Origin: a virus
IMG/VR virus record: IMGVR_UViG_3300015194_000004
Location: 1 to 45,003 of that record
Direction: 5' to 3' (one strand)
Length of the DNA: 45,003 nt
Made by a program: the position numbers and the translations under genes
Notes under the pieces: generated by a model
Told to the model about the DNA's origin: nothing
The model's input: the letters and a program-made list of their open reading frames with translations, nothing else
Database searches by the model: none
In this document: piece by piece, positions 8,513-45,003 of the stretch
Numbering within the stretch: the stretch's first letter is position 1
How the letters are laid out: every line of letters starts with the position of its first letter

Positions 8513-10344
8513 TTGTCACCCGGTCCACGTTTGATGAGTGTGTCTCATGGTTAGGGGCGTACCCTACCCTGGCAGTAGATACTGAAACTTCAGGTCTACG
8601 CCCCTACCATGGGGACAGATTGTTTTCCGTCATCATCGGGGACCAGTACCTCCAATTCTATTTCAACTTCCAGGCTTACCCAAATCTCGACGCAGACCTA
8701 ATCCTCTCCCCTTCCCACCTGGACAAGCTCAAGCCCCTCTTCAGTAACCCCCTCACCACCTGGTACGCCCACAAAGCCACTTTTGATCTTGCCTTCCTGG
8801 CAAGAGAGGGCATCTTTATATCGGGGACCATTCACTGCACGCGCTCCATTGCGCTGATTGAATACAACGAGCACCAGTCGTACACGCTGGATGCTTGTGG
8901 TGAAAGGATAGGGTACAGCAAAGATGCCACAGTCGAAGATCATATCCAGAAGAACAAGCTTTATGAGAAGCGTGCAGGGGCTACCCAATCCTACACCCAT
9001 AAGTTTTTTGACCGCGTACCGTTTCCACTTATATCCCGGTACGGTGCGCGAGACGCCGAAGTCTGTTATCGTCTCGGCCACCATCAGGAAAAGGCCCTGC
9101 AAGGACTAGCTGATGCGACTCCCCCCGCGCTGCCCTCTGTGCTTAATATCCTCCGCAATGAGCGTCGGCTTACGCGTACCGTATTTCGCATGGAGCATCT
9201 TGGAGTCCGAATTGATCGACCGTACTGTGTGCAGGCAGCACGCTTTGAAGCTGCCCGAGCAGCGGGCGCACTGGCAGAATTTAAAACGCACACTGGCGTC
9301 GATTTCAAAAACTCACCCAAGCTTTTTCAAGAGGTTTTTCGAGAGGACAGAGAGTTCTGGGGAGTCACCGATAAAGGAAATCCAAGCTTTGCTAGTGAAG
9401 CTTTACAACAGTTCCGAAACCCCGGCGCAAAGGCTGTACTCACCTACCGGGACGCTGTTTCTAAAGAGAACTTCTACAATGGGTTTATTTACCATGCAGA
9501 CCGAGATGACATCGTCCATCCGAAGTTTCACCAAGATGGTGCCGGGCACGGGCGGTTCTCCAGCTCCGACCCCAACTTCCAGAATCTTTCCAATGAAGAA
9601 GGAATAGAGCTGGAGCAAGAGTTCGTCGTCAGACGTGCGATCATCCCCCGGCCCGGGTTCATTCTACTGATGCCTGACTTCAACACCATGGAGTATTCTT
9701 TCCTTTTTGACCTGGCGTGCAAGCAAGCAGGGAGGGAGTCTGAGATTGTACGGATGATGAAGGAGCAAGGATTGGACCCACACCAAGCAACCGCCAATGC
9801 CGTGACCGCCATGGGGACGCCGCTGACACGTAAGCGTGCAAAAAACGGAAACTTCGCATTTCTTTTCGGGAGTGGTAATGAAACCCTGGCGGCAACCATC
9901 GGGTCCAGTGTGTCTGATGCAGCGGCTTTGAAGTCGGCGCTCCGCAAGGCTAGTCCGGAGGTTGCCGCTTTGATCAAGCTTGTGACGAGGACGGCAGAGG
10001 TCCGGGGGTGGATCTTCAACTGGGCTGGCAGGCGTTGCCATTTCCCGGACCCACGTTTCGCCTACCGAGCGATCAACTATTTGGTATCGGGCGGCTGTGC
10101 GGATATAAATAAAATGGCGCTCAATGCGGTAGATGAGTACCTGCTGTGTAAAAAATCGAAAATGATCATGACGATCCACGACGAAATCCCTATTGAGTGC
10201 CATGAGTCAGAAGTGGCAGAGGTGCCGAGGCGGGTGGTCGAGCTGATGGAGTCCATCTATCCCCACGAGTACCTCCCCATTACAGCCTCCATGGAGTGGT
10301 CAGACAAGTCTTTGGCGGACAAGACGAAGGGGTACCCAGTATGA
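8512..10344 (+). CDS. polA: Family A DNA polymerase with 3'-5' exonuclease domain
   Basis: The replicative polymerase has about 610 residues. Exonuclease motifs are LAVDTETSG (DxE), YAHKATFDLAFL and YGARDAEVCYRL. Polymerase motif A is LLMPDFNTMEYSF (catalytic Asp; the usual DYSQIE is DFNTME here), motif B RKRAKNGNFAFLFG, motif C MTIHDEIPIE (HDE). The start is unclear: no ATG, GTG or TTG lies between the preceding gene's stop and the exonuclease domain, so either ATT 8512 is used or translation begins at ATG 8119 and runs through the TR-rich gene in another frame. The stretch 8119-8512 encodes His/Asp-rich low complexity in this frame, which favours the later start. It ends overlapping the next ATG. 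Confidence 0.88.
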   Translation: MVTRSTFDECVSWLGAYPTLAVDTETSGLRPYHGDRLFSVIIGDQYLQFYFNFQAYPNLDADLILSPSHLDKLKPLFSNPLTTWYAHKATFDLAFLAREGIFISGTIHCTRSIALIEYNEHQSYTLDACGERIGYSKDATVEDHIQKNKLYEKRAGATQSYTHKFFDRVPFPLISRYGARDAEVCYRLGHHQEKALQGLADATPPALPSVLNILRNERRLTRTVFRMEHLGVRIDRPYCVQAARFEAARAAGALAEFKTHTGVDFKNSPKLFQEVFREDREFWGVTDKGNPSFASEALQQFRNPGAKAVLTYRDAVSKENFYNGFIYHADRDDIVHPKFHQDGAGHGRFSSSDPNFQNLSNEEGIELEQEFVVRRAIIPRPGFILLMPDFNTMEYSFLFDLACKQAGRESEIVRMMKEQGLDPHQATANAVTAMGTPLTRKRAKNGNFAFLFGSGNETLAATIGSSVSDAAALKSALRKASPEVAALIKLVTRTAEVRGWIFNWAGRRCHFPDPRFAYRAINYLVSGGCADINKMALNAVDEYLLCKKSKMIMTIHDEIPIECHESEVAEVPRRVVELMESIYPHEYLPITASMEWSDKSLADKTKGYPV

Positions 10345-10787
10345 GCGGAGTGAAGAATGACCAGGAAAAGGTTCAGTTGGATTTGCTTTCCGCCTCGTGG
10401 ATCAACGGTGTGGGGCAGGTGCTTACGTTTGGAGCTAAGAAGTACGCGGCTCACAATTGGCGTAAAGGTATCGCACGCTCCCGGCTCCTCGGGGCGGCAC
10501 TGCGGCACCTATTTGCGTACCTGGGGGGCGAGGATCGTGATCAGGAAACTGGTCTGCTACATCTATATCACGCATCCTGTTGCCTGATGTTTGCAAGCGA
10601 GCTTCACGAAACAAGACCCGATCTGGATGATCGGTACAAAACGATGGGGGTATTCGGTGGGACAAGTAATCGAGATCACGCGGTGGAAACAGGAGAAGCG
10701 GGAGCGGGAGTATCTGGAAAGGATGCACTACCACATCCTGAACATCAGCCACCTCCCAGAAAAGCAGGGGCGCACTTCGCTCCGTGA
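10341..10787 (+). CDS. DUF5664-type dNTP diphosphohydrolase-like protein
   Basis: The N-terminal 100 residues match the phage family often named dATP/dGTP diphosphohydrolase: VLTFGAKKYAAHNWRKG, RLLGAALRHLFAYLGGEDRDQETGLLHLYHASCCLMF, RPDLDDRY. This is the helical MazG-like arrangement with paired E/D and H residues that would hydrolyse nucleoside triphosphates. ATG 10341 overlaps the polymerase stop. The last 45 residues are low complexity and overlap the next gene, so the conserved protein effectively ends near 10640; read-on may be incidental. Confidence 0.75.
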   Translation: MSGVKNDQEKVQLDLLSASWINGVGQVLTFGAKKYAAHNWRKGIARSRLLGAALRHLFAYLGGEDRDQETGLLHLYHASCCLMFASELHETRPDLDDRYKTMGVFGGTSNRDHAVETGEAGAGVSGKDALPHPEHQPPPRKAGAHFAP

Positions 10788-36425: not shown

Positions 36426-36441
36426 TTGAAAGGGAATGACG

Positions 36442-36609
36442 ATGAGTAAACGAATGAGAGTTAGTCGGGCACTAGCACCGATGTTAAGAGCTACCGGGTT
36501 CAGGTTCAGCAAGGCATACCGTTACGGTGATAGCTTGTACCATCGTGTAGTGTACGCGTGCATTGATACGGTTGCAGCTAACCTGATAGCCGATGGGGTG
36601 CGCTTGTGA
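36442..36609 (+). CDS. Small basic protein opening the accessory operon
   Basis: This 55-residue protein has ATG 36442 after GAAAGGGAATGAC. The sequence is basic (MSKRMRVSRALAPMLRATG; FRFSKAYRYGDSLYHR) with one cysteine and a helical end (IDTVAANLIADG). The stop overlaps the GTG of the next frame. No family was recognised. It is co-oriented with the ubiquitin-like genes and may regulate them. Confidence 0.5.
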   Translation: MSKRMRVSRALAPMLRATGFRFSKAYRYGDSLYHRVVYACIDTVAANLIADGVRL

Positions 36610-36689
36610 ATGACTTTGGATGGGCGGATTGCAAGCCTCTACATGCGGTTGATGGTAGCTACTACCCGATGACAGTGAGCAAGTCATGA
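36606..36689 (+). CDS. Tiny peptide coupled to its neighbours
   Basis: This 27-residue frame has GTG 36606 overlapping the previous stop (GTGA) and its own stop overlapping the next ATG. The product starts MNDFGWADCKPLHAVDG. Overlaps at both ends support translation, but it is too short to judge by content. Confidence 0.3.
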   Translation: MNDFGWADCKPLHAVDGSYYPMTVSKS

Positions 36690-36937
36690 TGCTTGTTTAC
36701 TGGGTTTGTCGCCACAATGCCAGTGACTGTTACAGTATTCGGGCAAGGACCAAGCGGGAAGCGGAAGCGCAAAGACTTGCGCACTACATGCCGACTGACT
36801 TTGAAAAACCTGAACGGGTTACGGTGATATACCCGGATGGGTTCTCACTAGTGCAGCAATGCTTGTCAGAGTACAGGATCTTTGAGGGTTACGCGGACTA
36901 CAAGGACAAGGTGATAAACGACATCCGTCCTAACTAG
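36686..36937 (+). CDS. Small protein upstream of the ubiquitin-like gene
   Basis: This 83-residue protein starts with two ATGs at 36686. A compact alpha/beta pattern is seen: VYWVCRHNASDCYSIRA, a helix with TKREAEAQRLAHYM, a strand ERVTVIYPDGF and a C-terminal helix. Two cysteines lie near the N-terminus. The function is unknown. It shares orientation and low GC with the conjugation genes, so it may be a substrate, adaptor or regulator of that system. Confidence 0.6.
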   Translation: MMLVYWVCRHNASDCYSIRARTKREAEAQRLAHYMPTDFEKPERVTVIYPDGFSLVQQCLSEYRIFEGYADYKDKVINDIRPN

Positions 36938-36953
36938 GCTTGTTTTTTGATCG

Positions 36954-36979
36954 GCAAGCTAGGCAATAGTCTAGCTTGC
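36954..36979 (+). promoter_or_regulatory. Perfect inverted repeat upstream of the ubiquitin-like gene
   Basis: GCAAGCTAG, 8-base spacer GCAATAGT, CTAGCTTGC. CTTGTTTTTT lies just before it (36939-36948). There is no U-tract after the stem, so a dyad operator or leader hairpin is more likely than a terminator. Another CAAGC/GCTTG inverted pair (40132-40163) lies at the far end of the operon. Confidence 0.55.
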
Positions 36980-37033
36980 TCATTCAAGGCATAAGCTTTG
37001 AGCGATGCACGATGCATCGTATATAAGGAAGGA

Positions 37034-37048
37034 ACCGAGTCAAACGGT
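37034..37048 (+). promoter_or_regulatory. Leader hairpin with AGTCAAA loop, copy 2
   Basis: ACCG, loop AGTCAAA, CGGT, located 18 bases upstream of the ATG of the ubiquitin-like gene and directly before its AAGAAGGA ribosome site. It has the same loop as the hairpin at 36406. The E2-like gene leader has a partial match (TTCAAACGG at about 37346). Confidence 0.5.
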
Positions 37049-37066
37049 AAGAAGGAAAAAGACGAT

Positions 37067-37270
37067 ATGACTAATAACGTAGTAGGGCATGTTCAAGGTG
37101 GCGAGCGCAAAGTTTTCGATAACGTGAACACGGTAGCGGACATCAAGCGAGCACTTGGTTTCCCAAATCATCTTGGTCACATTAACGGTACGCCAGCACT
37201 GGACACCGATACCTTGAAAGAGCGGGATTACGTGCTATTGACCGAAAACACCAAAGGTGGAAACAAGTAA
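37067..37270 (+). CDS. Ubiquitin-like beta-grasp modifier
   Basis: This 67-residue protein starts at ATG 37067 after AAGAAGGAAAAAGACGAT; a TTG frame extension to 36998 was rejected. The beta-grasp pattern runs strand hairpin (VVGHVQGGERKVFDNV), helix (TVADIKRALGF), then GHINGTPALDTDTLKERDYVLL, the NG...L.D.D.V.L ending typical of ThiS and ubiquitin-like proteins. It ends TKGGNK: a Gly-Gly at 64-65 followed by two residues, so a peptidase would have to expose the Gly-Gly before activation. The E2, JAMM and E1 genes follow at once. It is likely the modifier that becomes attached to target proteins. Confidence 0.8.
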   Translation: MTNNVVGHVQGGERKVFDNVNTVADIKRALGFPNHLGHINGTPALDTDTLKERDYVLLTENTKGGNK

Positions 37271-37298
37271 TTCAGCTATTCCCTTTCATAGTTGAAGC

Positions 37299-37334
37299 GG
37301 GAAGGAGTGCAATGGTGCATTCCTTCCCTTTTTC
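37299..37334 (+). terminator. Rho-independent terminator between modifier and enzyme genes
   Basis: Stem GGGAAGGAGTGCA/TGCATTCCTTCCC (13 pairs, one G-U), a 4-base loop, then TTTTTC. It lies 28 bases after the modifier stop and 31 bases before the E2-like start. Transcription would mostly stop here, giving much more modifier than enzymes, unless a second promoter or antitermination serves the enzyme genes. Confidence 0.8.
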
Positions 37335-37365
37335 TATTGTCTCTTTTCAAACGGAGTGAACGACG

Positions 37366-38583
37366 ATGAGACCAGAATTTTTAGGTATGATACAAGGTAG
37401 TACGCTACCGGATATCACGCGAGATAACCCGTACAATTTAAGCACTTTGCCCTATGAGCCTTTAAGGCAAGCTTTAGAATACTTGCAACACTTGGCTACC
37501 ATGACTTGCGAGGATATCAAAGATTGGAAGCTGGATGAATTCCTAACGGAGGAAATGCTTGTCGATAAAACGGCAATGAATGGTGCATTCTTTGCCAAGG
37601 TGGATGCGGTCAAGGCAAGCAAGCAAGCCTATGATGAGAATGATCCAATTACTAAAGACTTGCTGGACTATGCGAAAGACTACGGACCAAACTTTTTGCT
37701 TAATAAGGTGAATACCCTGATTGCTAACCGTGATTTTGCTAAAATGGAAGCTTCAAATTATCTGACTTCCGCCGATGGAAAGATAAAAGAAGCTTATGAA
37801 ATGCATTGCCATGCGGAAGCATTGCAGGGAAGGAGAACTGGGATGGTCGATGAGATCAAACAAGTCTTATCGAATCCCTATTACAAGCTGAATTCAAAGG
37901 TAGGTGGCACAGTTTACTTTGACACACGAAACCCGGTGATTTGTGTTGAACGAAATGCGGAATACGGAGTGGACAGGAAAGTAAATCTTGGTTTGTTCCA
38001 GGTAAGCATTGACTTGTCTAGCCTTGAAATAAGGCTAAAGCCTAGCGGGAATAACGTCAATGCCGATGGTCACTACCATCCTTACTTGAGTGCAGCAGGG
38101 AAAGTTTGTTGGGGTAACTCAAGTGATGCGGTAGCGGGAATGCTTGCCAAGGGGGAGTTAGCGCGAGTCATGGCCCTATTGCCTGACTTGCTTTCAAACT
38201 TTTCCGGGGAAAGCACACCCTATGTCCAGCTTAAGAAATTTGAAGATATCAGGAAAGGAATTGAAGACGATGAAGAAGAGAATGAATGCGATGGATGCGG
38301 GAATAGTACGGACAATTGTGAATGTTGCGGTACTTGTAACACTCATGTTGACAATTGCGAGTGTTTCTATTGCGAGCAATGCGGAGAGACAAGCATTGAA
38401 AGGTGCGGCGAGCATTGGTGTTCGGTGTGTCGCACGTATGATGGTCAAGATTGCTCATGTTGCCGGGAATGCGATTCCGTAGAAGAGAATTGCGATAGGT
38501 GCCGGGAATGCGATTCCCATGATGATATTCATAACCGTAATTGCGAGCGCAACCTAAGTGACTCTGAAAGGGAAGCCCTATGA
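37366..38583 (+). CDS. E2-like (UBC-fold) conjugating protein with Cys-rich tandem-repeat tail
   Basis: This 405-residue protein has three parts. Residues 1-155 are helical (PYEPLRQALEYLQHLATM; KIKEAYEMHCHAEALQ). Residues 160-290 resemble a bacterial E2: strands (GTVYFDTRNPVICVERN; LGLFQVSIDLSSLEIRL), then GHYHPYLSAAGKVCWGNSSD, matching the E2 pattern HP..-..G..C.G with C248 as candidate thioester cysteine, then helices. Residues 308-393 hold 21 cysteines in about six repeats of CxxC-x6-8-CxC/CxxC type, predicted to bind zinc and possibly to act as a substrate or E3-like module. ATG 37366; stop overlaps the JAMM start. The E2 call is by pattern and operon context. Confidence 0.7.
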   Translation: MRPEFLGMIQGSTLPDITRDNPYNLSTLPYEPLRQALEYLQHLATMTCEDIKDWKLDEFLTEEMLVDKTAMNGAFFAKVDAVKASKQAYDENDPITKDLLDYAKDYGPNFLLNKVNTLIANRDFAKMEASNYLTSADGKIKEAYEMHCHAEALQGRRTGMVDEIKQVLSNPYYKLNSKVGGTVYFDTRNPVICVERNAEYGVDRKVNLGLFQVSIDLSSLEIRLKPSGNNVNADGHYHPYLSAAGKVCWGNSSDAVAGMLAKGELARVMALLPDLLSNFSGESTPYVQLKKFEDIRKGIEDDEEENECDGCGNSTDNCECCGTCNTHVDNCECFYCEQCGETSIERCGEHWCSVCRTYDGQDCSCCRECDSVEENCDRCRECDSHDDIHNRNCERNLSDSEREAL

Positions 38584-39464
38584 AACCGACAATTGTAATC
38601 GAGAATAAAGCTTATTTGAAAATCATGACTTGGGTTAAGCGCAATCCAGAAATGGAATGTTCAGGCTATGGCACTGTAGCGATTGAGCCCAAAGGAGTGC
38701 TTAGAGTGCTGGATGCTTTCCTGCTAAAGCAAGAAAACGGGAGAGTGGAAACGGACATAACAGCGGAAGCATACGCCAAGCTTTGCGCTGAATTGTACGG
38801 TAAAGGAGTAAAGGAATACTTAAATTTTTGGTGGCATTCACACCAAAAAATGAGTTCATTTATGTCAGGCACTGACAAGGATACTATCCGCAAGATAGGC
38901 GCGGGAGGTTTCATGGCGGCAAGCGTTTTTAACGTGAAAGAAGAGATTTTCTCGGCATTTTACAGCGCAAGCGGTTTGGACACACCATGGGGCAAGTCAG
39001 AGCTTTACTTGGATAACCTGGATACTCAAGTCATGCCGTTTGTTCATCCTGAACAAGCCTTGTGGGAAGCGGAATATGATTCCAAGGTGACAATCAAAGA
39101 AGCGGTGCAATGGCAGACACCAGCGTATGAGGATTGGCGCGGCTACAAGCCGGTTGAAAACTTGATTGTCATGGACAAGCCTATTGACGATGAGAAACCT
39201 TTGGATGATTGGAAAGGTTTAGATGATTGGGGTTTGTCAGTAGGCGAAGTGCAACACTTGCTTGCTATGAATTGGGAAAGTGATCACTTGGAAACCTTGG
39301 TGCAGCACTACCCAATTGAAATAGACGACATAGTGATGATTTCTTCCCTTGGTGGCGAACCAAAGGAAGTTATCTGGATGCTAGAAAATGAATATTCGGT
39401 TTCAGACATCTTGATGGAATTGAAAGCAGAGCAATTACAAGGATACTACAATGTTTCAGAATGA
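38580..39464 (+). CDS. JAB/JAMM metalloprotease (deubiquitinase-like)
   Basis: This 294-residue protein has a complete JAMM zinc motif: upstream Glu in PEMECSGYG (E26), then WWHSHQKMSSFMSGTD, that is H86-S-H88-x7-S96-xx-D99. This family cuts after Gly-Gly, either to mature a ubiquitin-like precursor or to remove it from targets. The C-terminal 120 residues carry an acidic linker (DDEKPLDDWKGLDDWG) and short helical motifs (SVGEVQHLLAMNWES; PKEVIWMLENEYSVSDILME) that recall small three-helix UBA-like domains; this last point is speculative. ATG 38580 overlaps the E2 stop, and its own end overlaps the E1 gene by 14 bases. Confidence 0.88.
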   Translation: MKPTIVIENKAYLKIMTWVKRNPEMECSGYGTVAIEPKGVLRVLDAFLLKQENGRVETDITAEAYAKLCAELYGKGVKEYLNFWWHSHQKMSSFMSGTDKDTIRKIGAGGFMAASVFNVKEEIFSAFYSASGLDTPWGKSELYLDNLDTQVMPFVHPEQALWEAEYDSKVTIKEAVQWQTPAYEDWRGYKPVENLIVMDKPIDDEKPLDDWKGLDDWGLSVGEVQHLLAMNWESDHLETLVQHYPIEIDDIVMISSLGGEPKEVIWMLENEYSVSDILMELKAEQLQGYYNVSE

Positions 39465-40125
39465 GCGTTTTACTCGGCAATTAGATCTTATTCCAATGTC
39501 CGTGCTTGCTTGCCCGGTAACTATCATCGGTGCCGGTGCTATTGGAAGCTGGACAAGCTTGTCACTAGCCAAAATGGGAATGAATGACATATCCGTGCAT
39601 GACTTTGATCGGGTAAGTGAGTTAAACTTACCGTCGCAATTCTACCCTGAAAGTGCCGTCGGGCAATTCAAGGTGGATGCACTTGCAAGCATGGTCAAGG
39701 CATTCACCGGAGTGGATATCAAGGTAAGCAGACAAGCTTATGAGCTAGGTCACTTTCCAGGGATTGTCATTTCAGCAGTTGACTCCATGGCAGTGCGGAA
39801 GCTGATATGGGAAAACCATGAAAACAAGTCAGTGCATACCAAGGCGATTATTGACCCAAGGATGGGCGCGGAAAACGCTTTGATGTATGTCATGAAACCG
39901 ATGTCACCTACCGATCAAACGGACTACCGAAAAAGCTTGTACAGCGATGCGCAAGCTTTTCAGGAGAGATGTACGGCTAAAGCTACCATTTACACTGCCA
40001 ATCTGTTATCGGGAATGGTGTGCAAGGCAGTCAAAGACTTGCTTACCAAGCCGGATTACCTTCGGACGGTGCAATGGGATATAGCGGGGAATGAGTTTAG
40101 TGGTTTCAAAAAACAAGTAAGCTAA
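39451..40125 (+). CDS. ThiF/E1-like activating enzyme
   Basis: This 224-residue minimal adenylating enzyme has nucleotide-binding GAGAIGS (27-33), HDFDRVSELNLPSQFY with the conserved Asp, Asn and Gln of the MoeB/ThiF/E1 active site, GQFKVDAL (Lys 74), VISAVDSMAVR (Asp for Mg), and CTAKATIYTA with C174 as candidate thioester cysteine. It would adenylate the Gly-Gly end of the modifier and pass it to the E2-like protein. It is short, with no separate UFD or second catalytic domain. ATG 39451 follows AAGGATACTACA. A hairpin and a strong terminator follow. Confidence 0.88.
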   Translation: MFQNERFTRQLDLIPMSVLACPVTIIGAGAIGSWTSLSLAKMGMNDISVHDFDRVSELNLPSQFYPESAVGQFKVDALASMVKAFTGVDIKVSRQAYELGHFPGIVISAVDSMAVRKLIWENHENKSVHTKAIIDPRMGAENALMYVMKPMSPTDQTDYRKSLYSDAQAFQERCTAKATIYTANLLSGMVCKAVKDLLTKPDYLRTVQWDIAGNEFSGFKKQVS

Positions 40126-40203: not shown

Positions 40204-40241
40204 GGCGCATGATCTGCCAAGGAGATCATGCGCCATTTTTT
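40204..40241 (+). terminator. Rho-independent terminator of the accessory operon
   Basis: Perfect 12-base stem GGCGCATGATCT/AGATCATGCGCC, 7-base loop, then ATTTTTTC. It is the strongest terminator in the window and separates the conjugation genes from the collagen-like gene. Confidence 0.88.
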
Positions 40242-40552: not shown

Positions 40553-41689
40553 ATGAAAATGCCATGGAACAAAGAAGAATTTCCCGTCCAGATCATCAAC
40601 GAGAATTGTGGTGCCGGAAATGGTGGCGCGGGCGCTCCTGGTCCTGCTGGTCCGGCTGGTGCTGACGGTGCGATGGGCCCTGTTGGACCTGCTGGTCCTG
40701 CTGGCGCTGACGGCCATCCTGGCGCTGACGGCATGGCTGGTCCTCAAGGCGCTCCAGGTATTGCTGGTCCTGCCGGCGCTGATGGCGCTCCAGGCCCTGC
40801 CGGTCACGACGGCAAAGACGGCGTTGACGGAGCTGTCGGCGCGGTCGGTCCTGTCGGCCCCCAGGGAATCCAGGGTCTCCAGGGAGACGCTGGTCCTGCC
40901 GGTCACGCTGGCGCAGATGGTCAAGCTGGCGCGGCCGGTGCGGCCGGTGCTCAGGGCCCCCAGGGCGTAGCTGGCGCTGACGGCGTCCCAGGCGTCCCAG
41001 GGCACGACGGAGCGGACGGGGTGGCGGGTAAGGATGGGGCGGCTGGTTTAATCGGTCCTGCGGGCCCCCAGGGAGTCCAGGGCGTGGCTGGAGCGGACGG
41101 TGCTGCCGGCGTTCCTGGTCACGACGGAGCGGCTGGCGTTGACGGCGCGGTCGGTCCTGCCGGTCCTGCCGGTCCTGCCGGTGTCGCGGGAGCGGACGGA
41201 GCCGCTGGTGTTCCAGGTCACGACGGCAAAGACGGGCTCGATGGCGCGGTCGGGGCAATTGGCCCCGTTGGTCCTGCCGGTCCCCAGGGTGTCGCGGGTG
41301 ATGCCGGTCCTGCCGGTCACGCTGGAGCCGACGGTGTCGCTGGTCCTGCCGGTCCCCAGGGTATCCAGGGTGTCGCAGGCGCTGACGGCGTCCCAGGCGT
41401 TCCTGGTCACGCTGGAGCCGACGGTGTCTCTGGTGTCGATGGCGCGGTCGGACCTGCTGGTCCTGCTGGCGCGGTCGGTCCCGCCGGACCTGCTGGTGCT
41501 GACGGAGCTGCCGGTAAAGACGGAGCCGCTGGCAAGGACGGGCTAATCCCCATCCTCCAGGCTGATCCTACCGACGTTGCCGTGACGGTCTGGGTTCTCC
41601 ACACCCCTCCTGCTGATCCAAGCGGGAAGGATGCGTACACCCTCAAGCTCCGCACGCCGAACTCGGTCGTCGTCCTGGCCCAGGTCTGA
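40553..41689 (+). CDS. Collagen-like fibre protein
   Basis: This 378-residue protein has a short N-terminal anchor (MKMPWNKEEFPVQIINEN), then roughly 300 residues of Gly-X-Y triplets rich in GPA, GAD and GHD (for example GPAGPAGADGAMGPV), and a 50-residue non-collagen cap ending TLKLRTPNSVVVLAQV. Such triplets form trimeric triple helices in phage tail or head fibres. Bacterial and phage collagens lack hydroxyproline; the many Asp and Lys give charge-stabilised helices. ATG 40553 follows AAAGGTAATCCTC. With the beta-helix gene downstream it forms a plus-strand fibre unit apart from the late operon. Confidence 0.88.
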   Translation: MKMPWNKEEFPVQIINENCGAGNGGAGAPGPAGPAGADGAMGPVGPAGPAGADGHPGADGMAGPQGAPGIAGPAGADGAPGPAGHDGKDGVDGAVGAVGPVGPQGIQGLQGDAGPAGHAGADGQAGAAGAAGAQGPQGVAGADGVPGVPGHDGADGVAGKDGAAGLIGPAGPQGVQGVAGADGAAGVPGHDGAAGVDGAVGPAGPAGPAGVAGADGAAGVPGHDGKDGLDGAVGAIGPVGPAGPQGVAGDAGPAGHAGADGVAGPAGPQGIQGVAGADGVPGVPGHAGADGVSGVDGAVGPAGPAGAVGPAGPAGADGAAGKDGAAGKDGLIPILQADPTDVAVTVWVLHTPPADPSGKDAYTLKLRTPNSVVVLAQV

Positions 41690-44011: not shown

Positions 44012-45003
44012 CTACGATTCCGCCGACACCTTCACCCGCACCCCGATCCCCTTCACTTGTCGTTCTAATTTAGTCCGGTGTTCCTTGACGCCCCGGTCCG
44101 CGAGGTAACGAAAGAAGGTGCTCCTCCCCAACTTGGTGTCGAAATTATGAGCGACCCGATGCCAGGCCACGAAGCAAGTCCAGAGGCTAGTTTTGGGAAT
44201 TGTGGCCTCAGAATCAATGAACAGTTGATTGTTGCTGTCAAGAACTTCTCCGTTCTCAATGTCGCGGAGAAACTCCCCCACTGGGTCAGACCGGAGGTTC
44301 CACAAGGTCATGGCCTCCTTGCTGCTCTTGGGTTGGTGGAAGTTCTCATCATCCTGGAGAAGGTCCTCCAAGCCCCTGAGCGCCCAATTGAAGACTCCGT
44401 CCGGGCACTGGTCAAAGCACCAGTTCCAATAATCCCGGATGTGCTTCTCCTTGGGTACGTGTGAGGTGAGTTCGATGAGTGTGAATCTCCGATTGAGCGC
44501 CTTGGAAGATCCAGCAAAAGACTTGGGTAGGTCATTCCCCCCGAACATGTGCACCGAGGGAATGGGGGCGCAGATGACCTCCTTGTACTTGCGTTTGATG
44601 GGCATGGGTTTGCGTTCGATGATCTTCTTCACGATGGCGTCTTGCATCGGCTCATTGAGAGGAATGTCGGTGTCGATGTTGACGAGCTTGCCCACCATGG
44701 ATGTCAGGTGGTCGTCTTTGAACTCAGATGGCGGAACTGAGCAGAGATTTTCTGGGGAGACGAGCCTGGCAGCGATATTGAGTACCGTGCTTTTCCCCGT
44801 ACCTGGGGGGCCATAGACCATGAAGATGTGGGGGAAGGCGGGCAGGAGGCTTGCCCCGAACATGTGTCCAAAGGAGCGTGTCTTCCCCGCCGCATCCAGG
44901 TCTTTATGGACGATTCGTTCCATCATGGCTTCAAACTCGGGGTTTTTGGCCTTCCGCTCATGGTCGTAGGTATAGGGTAGGACGTTGGTGATGAAGTCAG
45001 ACT
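44012..45003 (-). CDS. Bifunctional TOPRIM primase / SF3 helicase, C-terminal part, continues at 138
   Basis: This is the helicase end of the 803-residue protein that starts at 1558. Seen here: the AAA+ SF3 core with Walker A GPPGTGKST, Walker B-like KLVNIDTDIPLNEPM, sensor-type SVHMFGGNDLPKSFAGSSKALNRRF (motif C with Asn and the Arg finger region, read in two parts), then PVGEFLRDIENGEVLD and a winged-helix-like C-terminus (WTCFVAWHRVAHNFDTKLGRSTFF). The frame stays open to the last base. Position 45003 corresponds to 138 in the left copy. Confidence 0.92.
   Translation of the reverse strand, partial: SDFITNVLPYTYDHERKAKNPEFEAMMERIVHKDLDAAGKTRSFGHMFGASLLPAFPHIFMVYGPPGTGKSTVLNIAARLVSPENLCSVPPSEFKDDHLTSMVGKLVNIDTDIPLNEPMQDAIVKKIIERKPMPIKRKYKEVICAPIPSVHMFGGNDLPKSFAGSSKALNRRFTLIELTSHVPKEKHIRDYWNWCFDQCPDGVFNWALRGLEDLLQDDENFHQPKSSKEAMTLWNLRSDPVGEFLRDIENGEVLDSNNQLFIDSEATIPKTSLWTCFVAWHRVAHNFDTKLGRSTFFRYLADRGVKEHRTKLERQVKGIGVRVKVSAES
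44878..45003. repeat. Right copy of 126-base terminal direct repeat
   Basis: It is identical to 13-138. Joining the ends by dropping one copy restores an intact 803-codon primase-helicase (2,412 bases, a multiple of three), which supports a closed assembly. Confidence 0.9.

Follow-up and report, generated by a model that had tools for sequence, protein, structure and literature searches.

A four-gene ubiquitin-like conjugation cassette resident in phages: a probable protein-tagging pathway with a possible link to replication

What is a complete set of genes for ubiquitin-like protein conjugation doing in a phage genome? The question is raised by four closely packed open reading frames (ORFs), all on the plus strand at positions 37067-40125 of a 45,003-nucleotide stretch of viral DNA (positions 1 to 45,003 of the IMG/VR record IMGVR_UViG_3300015194_000004; the whole stretch is called the window), which encode a ubiquitin-like modifier (Ubl), a protein resembling E2 conjugating enzymes, a JAMM (JAB/MPN+) metallopeptidase (JAB) and an E1-like ThiF enzyme. 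A sequence-only reading had proposed that they form a complete conjugation cassette, and this is borne out by profile searches, structure models, gene order and residue conservation: the cassette is real, conserved, catalytically intact and far more widespread than first thought. We regard it as what appears to be a phage-owned variant of prokaryotic ubiquitin-like conjugation, and one that very probably works as a conjugation pathway. Discussion of prokaryotic Ubl conjugation has until now centred on bacterial defence, plasmid cargo and archaeal biology, and a constrained and widespread pathway in phages would mean that covalent protein tagging is used on the virus side too.

Are the four genes together by chance? 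When viral contigs were scanned with the single E2 or E1 proteins of the window, no relatives were found. A tblastn search of annotated phages with the E1 gave matches in Flavobacterium phages, crAss-like Bacteroides phages, Xanthomonas and Erwinia jumbo phages and others; an alignment of the E1 proteins of the window and of phage PhiXhv-12 matched 41 viral contigs and a closer alignment matched 28, with 8 common to both and thus 61 distinct; and in the GTDB genome collection the E1 search matched 33 contigs. Based on iterated profiles of Ubl, E2, JAB and E1, from which the gene order and the residue counts given below were all taken, the exact order Ubl-E2-JAB-E1 is present at 56 main-family loci, 35 of them viral (the window included) and 21 from the genome collection. 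Because four families recur together, in order, at 56 loci, the set is not due to chance. Moreover, the ratio of nonsynonymous to synonymous substitution rates (dN/dS) in close phage copies (loci L022-L024) is 0.11-0.23 for nearly all genes, the exception being one JAB pair with 0.6, where dS is only 0.03; these copies are under purifying selection.

The JAMM peptidase (38580-39464, 294 residues) and the E1 (39451-40125, 224 residues, a single adenylation domain), both of which had been recognized from motifs, pass the curated Pfam cut-offs for JAB (4.4e-6) and ThiF (1e-16), respectively. The peptidase has the residues of the JAMM zinc site (E ... HxHx7Sx2D) as E26 and H86-S-H88-x7-S96-x2-D99, conserved among the relatives in 84/85 (E26), 87/87 (H86) and 86/86 each (H88, S96 and D99), and its closest solved relatives are Rpn11 and the Caldiarchaeum Rpn11-like protein. 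The E1 shows what characterizes the E1/ThiF superfamily, i.e., a Rossmann GxGxxG motif (GAGAIGS in the window), adenylation residues (K74, D111 and R116, 95/95) and a candidate thioester cysteine (C174 in ERCTAKATIY, 93/93), with the GxGxxG motif, D51 and N59 also nearly invariant, and its profile matches UBA5, SAE2, ThiF and Cap2. It is noted that C174 is put forward as the catalytic cysteine of the E1 on the basis of this invariance.

The E2-like enzyme (37366-38583, 405 residues) consists of a helical N-terminus, a UBC core at about residues 165-305 and a Cys-rich tail, with an active-site stretch that reads HYHP (238-239) ... C248-W-G250. The window protein alone has no Pfam match. The family profile matches UbcH5, Ubc13 and UBE2L3 at E-values of 0.002-0.05, with HPHv..sG.iClG aligned over HPN...G.iCL, so that the catalytic cysteines align with those of the eukaryotic E2s, and the Pfam family UQ_con is matched by 2 of the 26 family members (best 6.4e-4). 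In the AlphaFold2 (AF2) model the core has a predicted local distance difference test score (pLDDT) of about 95; the best match of the full-length model in the PDB is Ube2W (Foldseek E-value 0.04, probability 0.97), with further matches to TSG101-UEV, Atg10 and a bacterial E2. Within the family, C248-x-G250 is present in 75/75 and HP in 71/75 members. The protein thus has the features of the E2/UBC superfamily, a UBC fold with a catalytic cysteine after an HP motif, and the fold lies where it had been predicted, around residues 160-290. The core is also the fastest-evolving part of the cassette (median pairwise identity of 30%, versus 50% for the E1, 45% for the JAB and 40% for the Ubl), as expected of a part that faces the substrates.

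The tail of the E2 (38296-38556, residues 311-397), which adds to what had been described, holds 20 cysteines in 87 residues, with repeated CxxC and CxC. Although CxxC is frequent in it, the tail gives no match to RING (canonical pattern C3HC4), and its model confidence is below 50; we take it to be a putative built-in module that would bind zinc and act in an E3-like or substrate-binding manner. Similar tails occur on the E2 proteins of the Xanthomonas phage PhiXhv-12 (L005), of the viral loci L033, L034 and L038 and of Planctomycetota copies, while the nearest relative of the window, L084, has an E2 without such a tail. With its presence in scattered relatives and yet not in L084, the tail must have been gained and lost. 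As side observations, the E2-like protein of PhiXhv-12, a Xanthomonas jumbo phage, is 892 residues long (3247-5925 of L005) and has an N-terminal extension besides the Cys-rich tail, and a 140-residue neighbour of it ends in ASGG; in the Planctomycetota cassettes (L068-L080) the E2 C-termini are rich in CxxC (RING/B-box-like) motifs, and the common neighbours are a 304-residue protein, a GHKL-type ATPase and a 331-residue protein.

The modifier gene (37067-37270) encodes 67 residues in one beta-grasp domain with the C-terminus TKGGNK. Searched alone, the protein gives weak ThiS matches and no Pfam match of its own over the cut-off, whereas the family profile, built from its relatives, matches SAMP2 at 5e-11 and also ubiquitin; when family members were compared with Pfam, 6 of 23 matched ThiS and 2 of 23 SAMP2. 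The AF2 model (pLDDT 84) matches SUMO, NEDD8 and ubiquitin with a Foldseek probability of 1.00, with E-values that are modest for this very small domain. Among the relatives, 66 of 72 end in GG, in GG followed by 1-6 residues or in a close variant (G followed by A, N, E or S, or AG). The protein thus combines a beta-grasp fold with a C-terminal glycine that is exposed or exposable, as a modifier should, and the model, the structural matches and the family profile agree in supporting the beta-grasp modifier that had been read in this gene. In the window, exposure of the GG would require trimming of the residues NK.

Between the modifier gene and the enzyme genes lies a terminator-like hairpin on the plus strand (37299-37328, a stem of 13 bp and a T run). 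Of the 41 loci at which this gap could be tested, an attenuator-like hairpin is present in 9, including the window, whereas mononucleotide shuffles predict 0.15. The window hairpin is probably an attenuator yielding surplus modifier: with such a hairpin after the Ubl gene, the modifier would exceed the enzymes in amount. The genes overlap at the E2/JAB and JAB/E1 ends, and a second terminator-like hairpin (40204-40234, plus strand) closes the cassette. The start codon ATG at 37067 is preceded by AGAAGGA, which resembles a Shine-Dalgarno sequence, and agrees with the start positions of the relatives. Since the small ORFs upstream, at 36436-36609 and 36686-36937 (57 and 83 residues), are without relatives at any other cassette, we reject them as members and take the cassette to begin at 37067; the placement of the four genes on the plus strand had been read correctly, while the earlier start at 36442 took in these two unrelated ORFs.

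How far does the arrangement extend beyond the main family? With a crAss-like E1 profile, 127 stretches were matched, 78 loci were kept, and a JAB gene was found upstream of the E1 in 64/64 viral contigs with enough upstream sequence. In the crAss-like and Flavobacterium phages (DAC15/DAC17, cr128_1, FpV4; L002-L006), as in the window, the JAB gene is immediately upstream of a related E1, with an HxH..CxG E2-like protein and a ubiquitin-like protein further upstream. However, when compared by profile, the crAss-type E2 matches only over the active-site stretch (E-value 0.001, probability 21%) and the Ubl gives nothing significant, so that it is position and motif alone that make these two proteins counterparts. 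Unlike the window Ubl, the ubiquitin-like proteins of L002-L006 have an extension of 100-200 residues beyond an invariant SG, which looks as if internal cleavage releases the modifier. Related sets are thus present in cultured phages, namely Bacteroides DAC15/DAC17, Flavobacterium FpV4 and Xanthomonas PhiXhv-12, where they are annotated merely as 'thiamine biosynthesis' or hypothetical; because such phages are in culture, the targets of phage tagging should be accessible to ordinary proteomics. The ownership of the pathway by a phage had been called unexpected; this is in part mistaken, for the cassette is widespread in phages, albeit without a name. In the open literature searched, which covered few subscription papers, a phage-encoded cassette with all of Ubl, E2, JAB and E1 is not described. 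Viruses of Helarchaeota were reportedly suggested by Rambo in 2022 to hijack host ubiquitin systems.

Is the cassette a recent arrival in the window phage? A tree of 98 E1 sequences places the window in a 21-member clade, of which 19 are viral and 2 are labelled cellular (support 100/99); of the latter two, L053 has a helicase and other replication genes in common with the window phage, and the other is L051, described below. The nearest relative, L084 (G001), is a 47-kb contig that has the cassette, with an E1 63% identical to that of the window, together with a terminase 54-55% identical, a portal protein 61% identical and another protein of the structural arm 62% identical. Since L084 shares both the structural genes and the cassette, the cassette is resident and inherited with the phage rather than freshly captured, and has been kept in the phage lineage while the terminases diverged to about 55% identity; for the same reason a chimeric assembly is rejected. 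As a separate observation, an 8-kb contig binned as Lokiarchaeota (L051, JABXKD010000121.1) holds a complete cassette with an E1 48% identical to that of the window, and possibly comes from a virus or a mis-binned phage.

Based on these features, the pathway is proposed to work as follows. By removing the residues NK, the JAMM enzyme would leave a modifier ending in ...GG. The E1, probably as a homodimer, would adenylate the terminal glycine at the expense of ATP and then take the modifier as a thioester on C174, from which the E2 would receive it on C248. Aided by its own Cys-rich tail as an E3 or substrate binder, the E2 would link the modifier to lysines of the targets, and the JAMM enzyme would strip it off again. 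We infer in what order these reactions take place, that the tail acts like an E3 and that conjugates are present in infected cells.

What would such a pathway be for? The explanation that we consider best, and probable on balance, is a reversible ubiquitin-like conjugation pathway owned by the phage with an early-phase role in replication, recombination or takeover. Helicase/primase genes homologous to those of the window follow immediately downstream of the cassette at L053, L094, L097, L099 and L102, and genes for primase, toprim, uracil-DNA glycosylase (UDG), exonuclease, ligase or topoisomerase are its neighbours in two crAss-like phages (DAC17, cr128_1), in Dulem virus 41, in FpV4 and in PhiXhv-12. 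Among the PHROG matches of 137 neighbours, helicases, primases and exonucleases lead, with some terminase small subunits and tail-fibre proteins, the numbers being a tally and not an enrichment statistic. Because the cassette adjoins primase, helicase, exonuclease, UDG or topoisomerase genes in independent phages, the early replication or takeover role is favoured, although, taken on its own, a replication-linked role rather than a tail or defence role is held only tentatively. The substrates would be either the replication proteins of the phage or proteins of the host that these must displace.

In the window itself the cassette and the replication genes lie on one strand and the structural arm on the other. 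After the cassette come the terminator-like hairpin, the gene for a collagen-like fibre (40553-41689; GPAGPAG repeats, guanine-plus-cytosine (GC) content 0.69 in a genome of 0.56) and, further on and on the other strand, a DUF5906 ATPase gene. The window also has a terminal direct repeat (1-138 and 44866-45003; 138 bases, 3 of them mismatched); the genome in this record is probably complete, though the collection classes it as linear, and because of the repeat the replication arm at the start of the record probably follows the cassette across the join. A match to the N-terminal domain of dATP/dGTP diphosphohydrolase at 10296-10787 is also seen, suggesting that the phage may have enzymes of the nucleotide pool or of base modification.

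Several points weigh against this explanation. The evidence for the E2 is modest piece by piece, as the E-values given above for sequence matches to PDB entries (about 0.002-0.05) and for Foldseek (0.04) indicate; the GC content of the cassette is 0.453 versus 0.558, which may reflect a recent gain or merely a different class of genes; the gene next after the cassette is the fibre gene, not a replication gene; the tally of neighbours lists families rather than enrichment; and all inference is from sequence. In addition, Planctomycetota and Myxococcota genomes hold several cellular copies, so that the wider family is common to cells and phages and is not phage-specific overall. On the E1 tree about 10 changes of the viral/cellular label are needed, and the pathway may have passed repeatedly between phages and cells. 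The genomes of L064 and L069 (Myxococcales or Planctomycetota) have at least 4 E1 copies of the family each.

The strongest alternative, which we consider unlikely though well worth weighing, is a weapon like Bil, with which the phage would tag structural proteins of rival phages (superinfection exclusion) or tag and inactivate host defence proteins. Bil, which has the same gene order, is said to act against phages by conjugation to a phage tail or fibre protein, as reported by Hoer and by Chambers in 2024; the fastest evolution being in the E2 is as in an arms race, and the distribution is patchy across many phage types. However, the domain make-up does not fit Bil, the neighbours are replication genes rather than accessory defence genes, and the cassette has been kept with the structural genes over a long divergence, which is not required of a rapidly exchanged weapon.

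An improbable alternative is that the cassette matures or stabilizes the phage's own fibre or virion, with the neighbouring collagen-like fibre as the substrate. The fibre gene is on the same strand, 428 bp past the E1, and a ubiquitin-like protein, TAPI, occurs together with a JAB protease in the lambda/T1 tail clusters (Iyer 2006, PMC1779556), but these clusters are without E1 or E2, the hairpin at 40204-40234 separates cassette and fibre gene, other cassette loci are without a fibre relative, and tail-fibre families are a minority of the neighbours. Maturation of fibres, which had been suggested earlier, is thus weakened by the placement of the cassette with replication genes in other phages. 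Still less probable is a decoy or antagonist, the proteins of which would run no pathway of their own and would instead bind to Ubl systems of the host (Bil, Bub, CBASS) or strip them: judged from its family, the phage JAMM enzyme could take off host conjugates, but an intact E1 and E2 would then be superfluous, whereas their catalytic residues are all intact and the conserved gene order still includes a modifier of the cassette's own. The least probable is a sulfur carrier, in which a ThiS/MoaD-like Ubl would be activated by ThiF for thio-modification or cofactor synthesis with JAB as the processing protease, since, although the Ubl and the E1 match ThiS and ThiF models and phage ThiF genes carry thiamine annotation, a dedicated UBC-fold E2 with its cysteine in 75/75 has no part in sulfur transfer, genes for ThiG, MoaE, CysM, rhodanese or tRNA thiolation did not stand out among the neighbours, and a ThiS/MoaD operon is rejected with no sulfur-transfer or cofactor enzyme noted there.

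Returning to the replication-linked pathway, its fullest form is that tailed phages, from ones of about 40 kb to crAss-like and jumbo phages, own a reversible ubiquitin/SUMO-like tagging of replication or host-takeover proteins, with an E2 bearing a zinc-binding E3-like tail, and that this tagging, separate from that of Bil, PRTRC and CBASS, evolved in phages. In this entirety it is conjectural and rather doubtful; if true, it would be a viral counterpart of the ubiquitin/SUMO control over DNA replication.

Finally, we compare the cassette with the known systems. The lambda/T1 TAPI-TAPK tail cluster (Iyer 2006) likewise has a phage-encoded ubiquitin-like domain and a JAB protease, but differs in its tail location, its NlpC/P60 fusion and its lack of E1 and E2, for which reason membership is rejected. 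Type II CBASS combines E1 and E2 chemistry with a JAB protease (Cap2/Cap3), and the window E1 is weakly similar to the E1-E2 models; however, Cap2 is a fused E2-E1 that conjugates the CD-NTase, while the window has separate genes and its own modifier, and since none of the scanned neighbours matches a CD-NTase we reject membership here too. The PRTRC plasmid cassette (type 6d of Iyer 2006, by our reading) is carried by mobile elements, close to replication/partition genes (L007), with Ubl, E2, JAB and ThiF as separate genes whose relative order is that of the window. It had been named as a possible relative, and a distant relative it is; but the window E1 scores 38.4 bits against PRTRC_ThiF, under the cut-off of 144.75 bits, and the cassette matches none of the E, F and ParB genes, the Prok-E2_D E2 and the Prok_Ub Ubl that the reference locus matches, so that membership is rejected. 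The Bub operons of bacterial Ubl conjugation, 544 of which were counted, are reported from bacterial genomes with CapW/CapHP/CapKS regulators (PMC13373217). As to Bil, BilA has two consecutive ubiquitin-like domains, BilD has an inactive and an active adenylation domain with a Cys domain of about 80 residues, and BilB has a CEHH motif, C-x5-E-x-H-x4-H (PMC11354881). By contrast, the window Ubl is a single beta-grasp of 67 residues, the E1 has one ThiF domain in 224 residues without the inactive one, and the E2 has WGNSSDAVAGM after C248 in place of CEHH, with its HP...C and the Cys-rich tail; moreover, the window cassette is phage-resident. Of the claimed identity with Bil, then, the gene order stands and the three domain and motif features do not, and membership is rejected. 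What the two have in common is the arrangement of four separate genes in the order Ubl-E2-deubiquitinase-E1 (BilABCD) and, as proposed for the window, a precursor Ubl that is trimmed by the JAMM enzyme.

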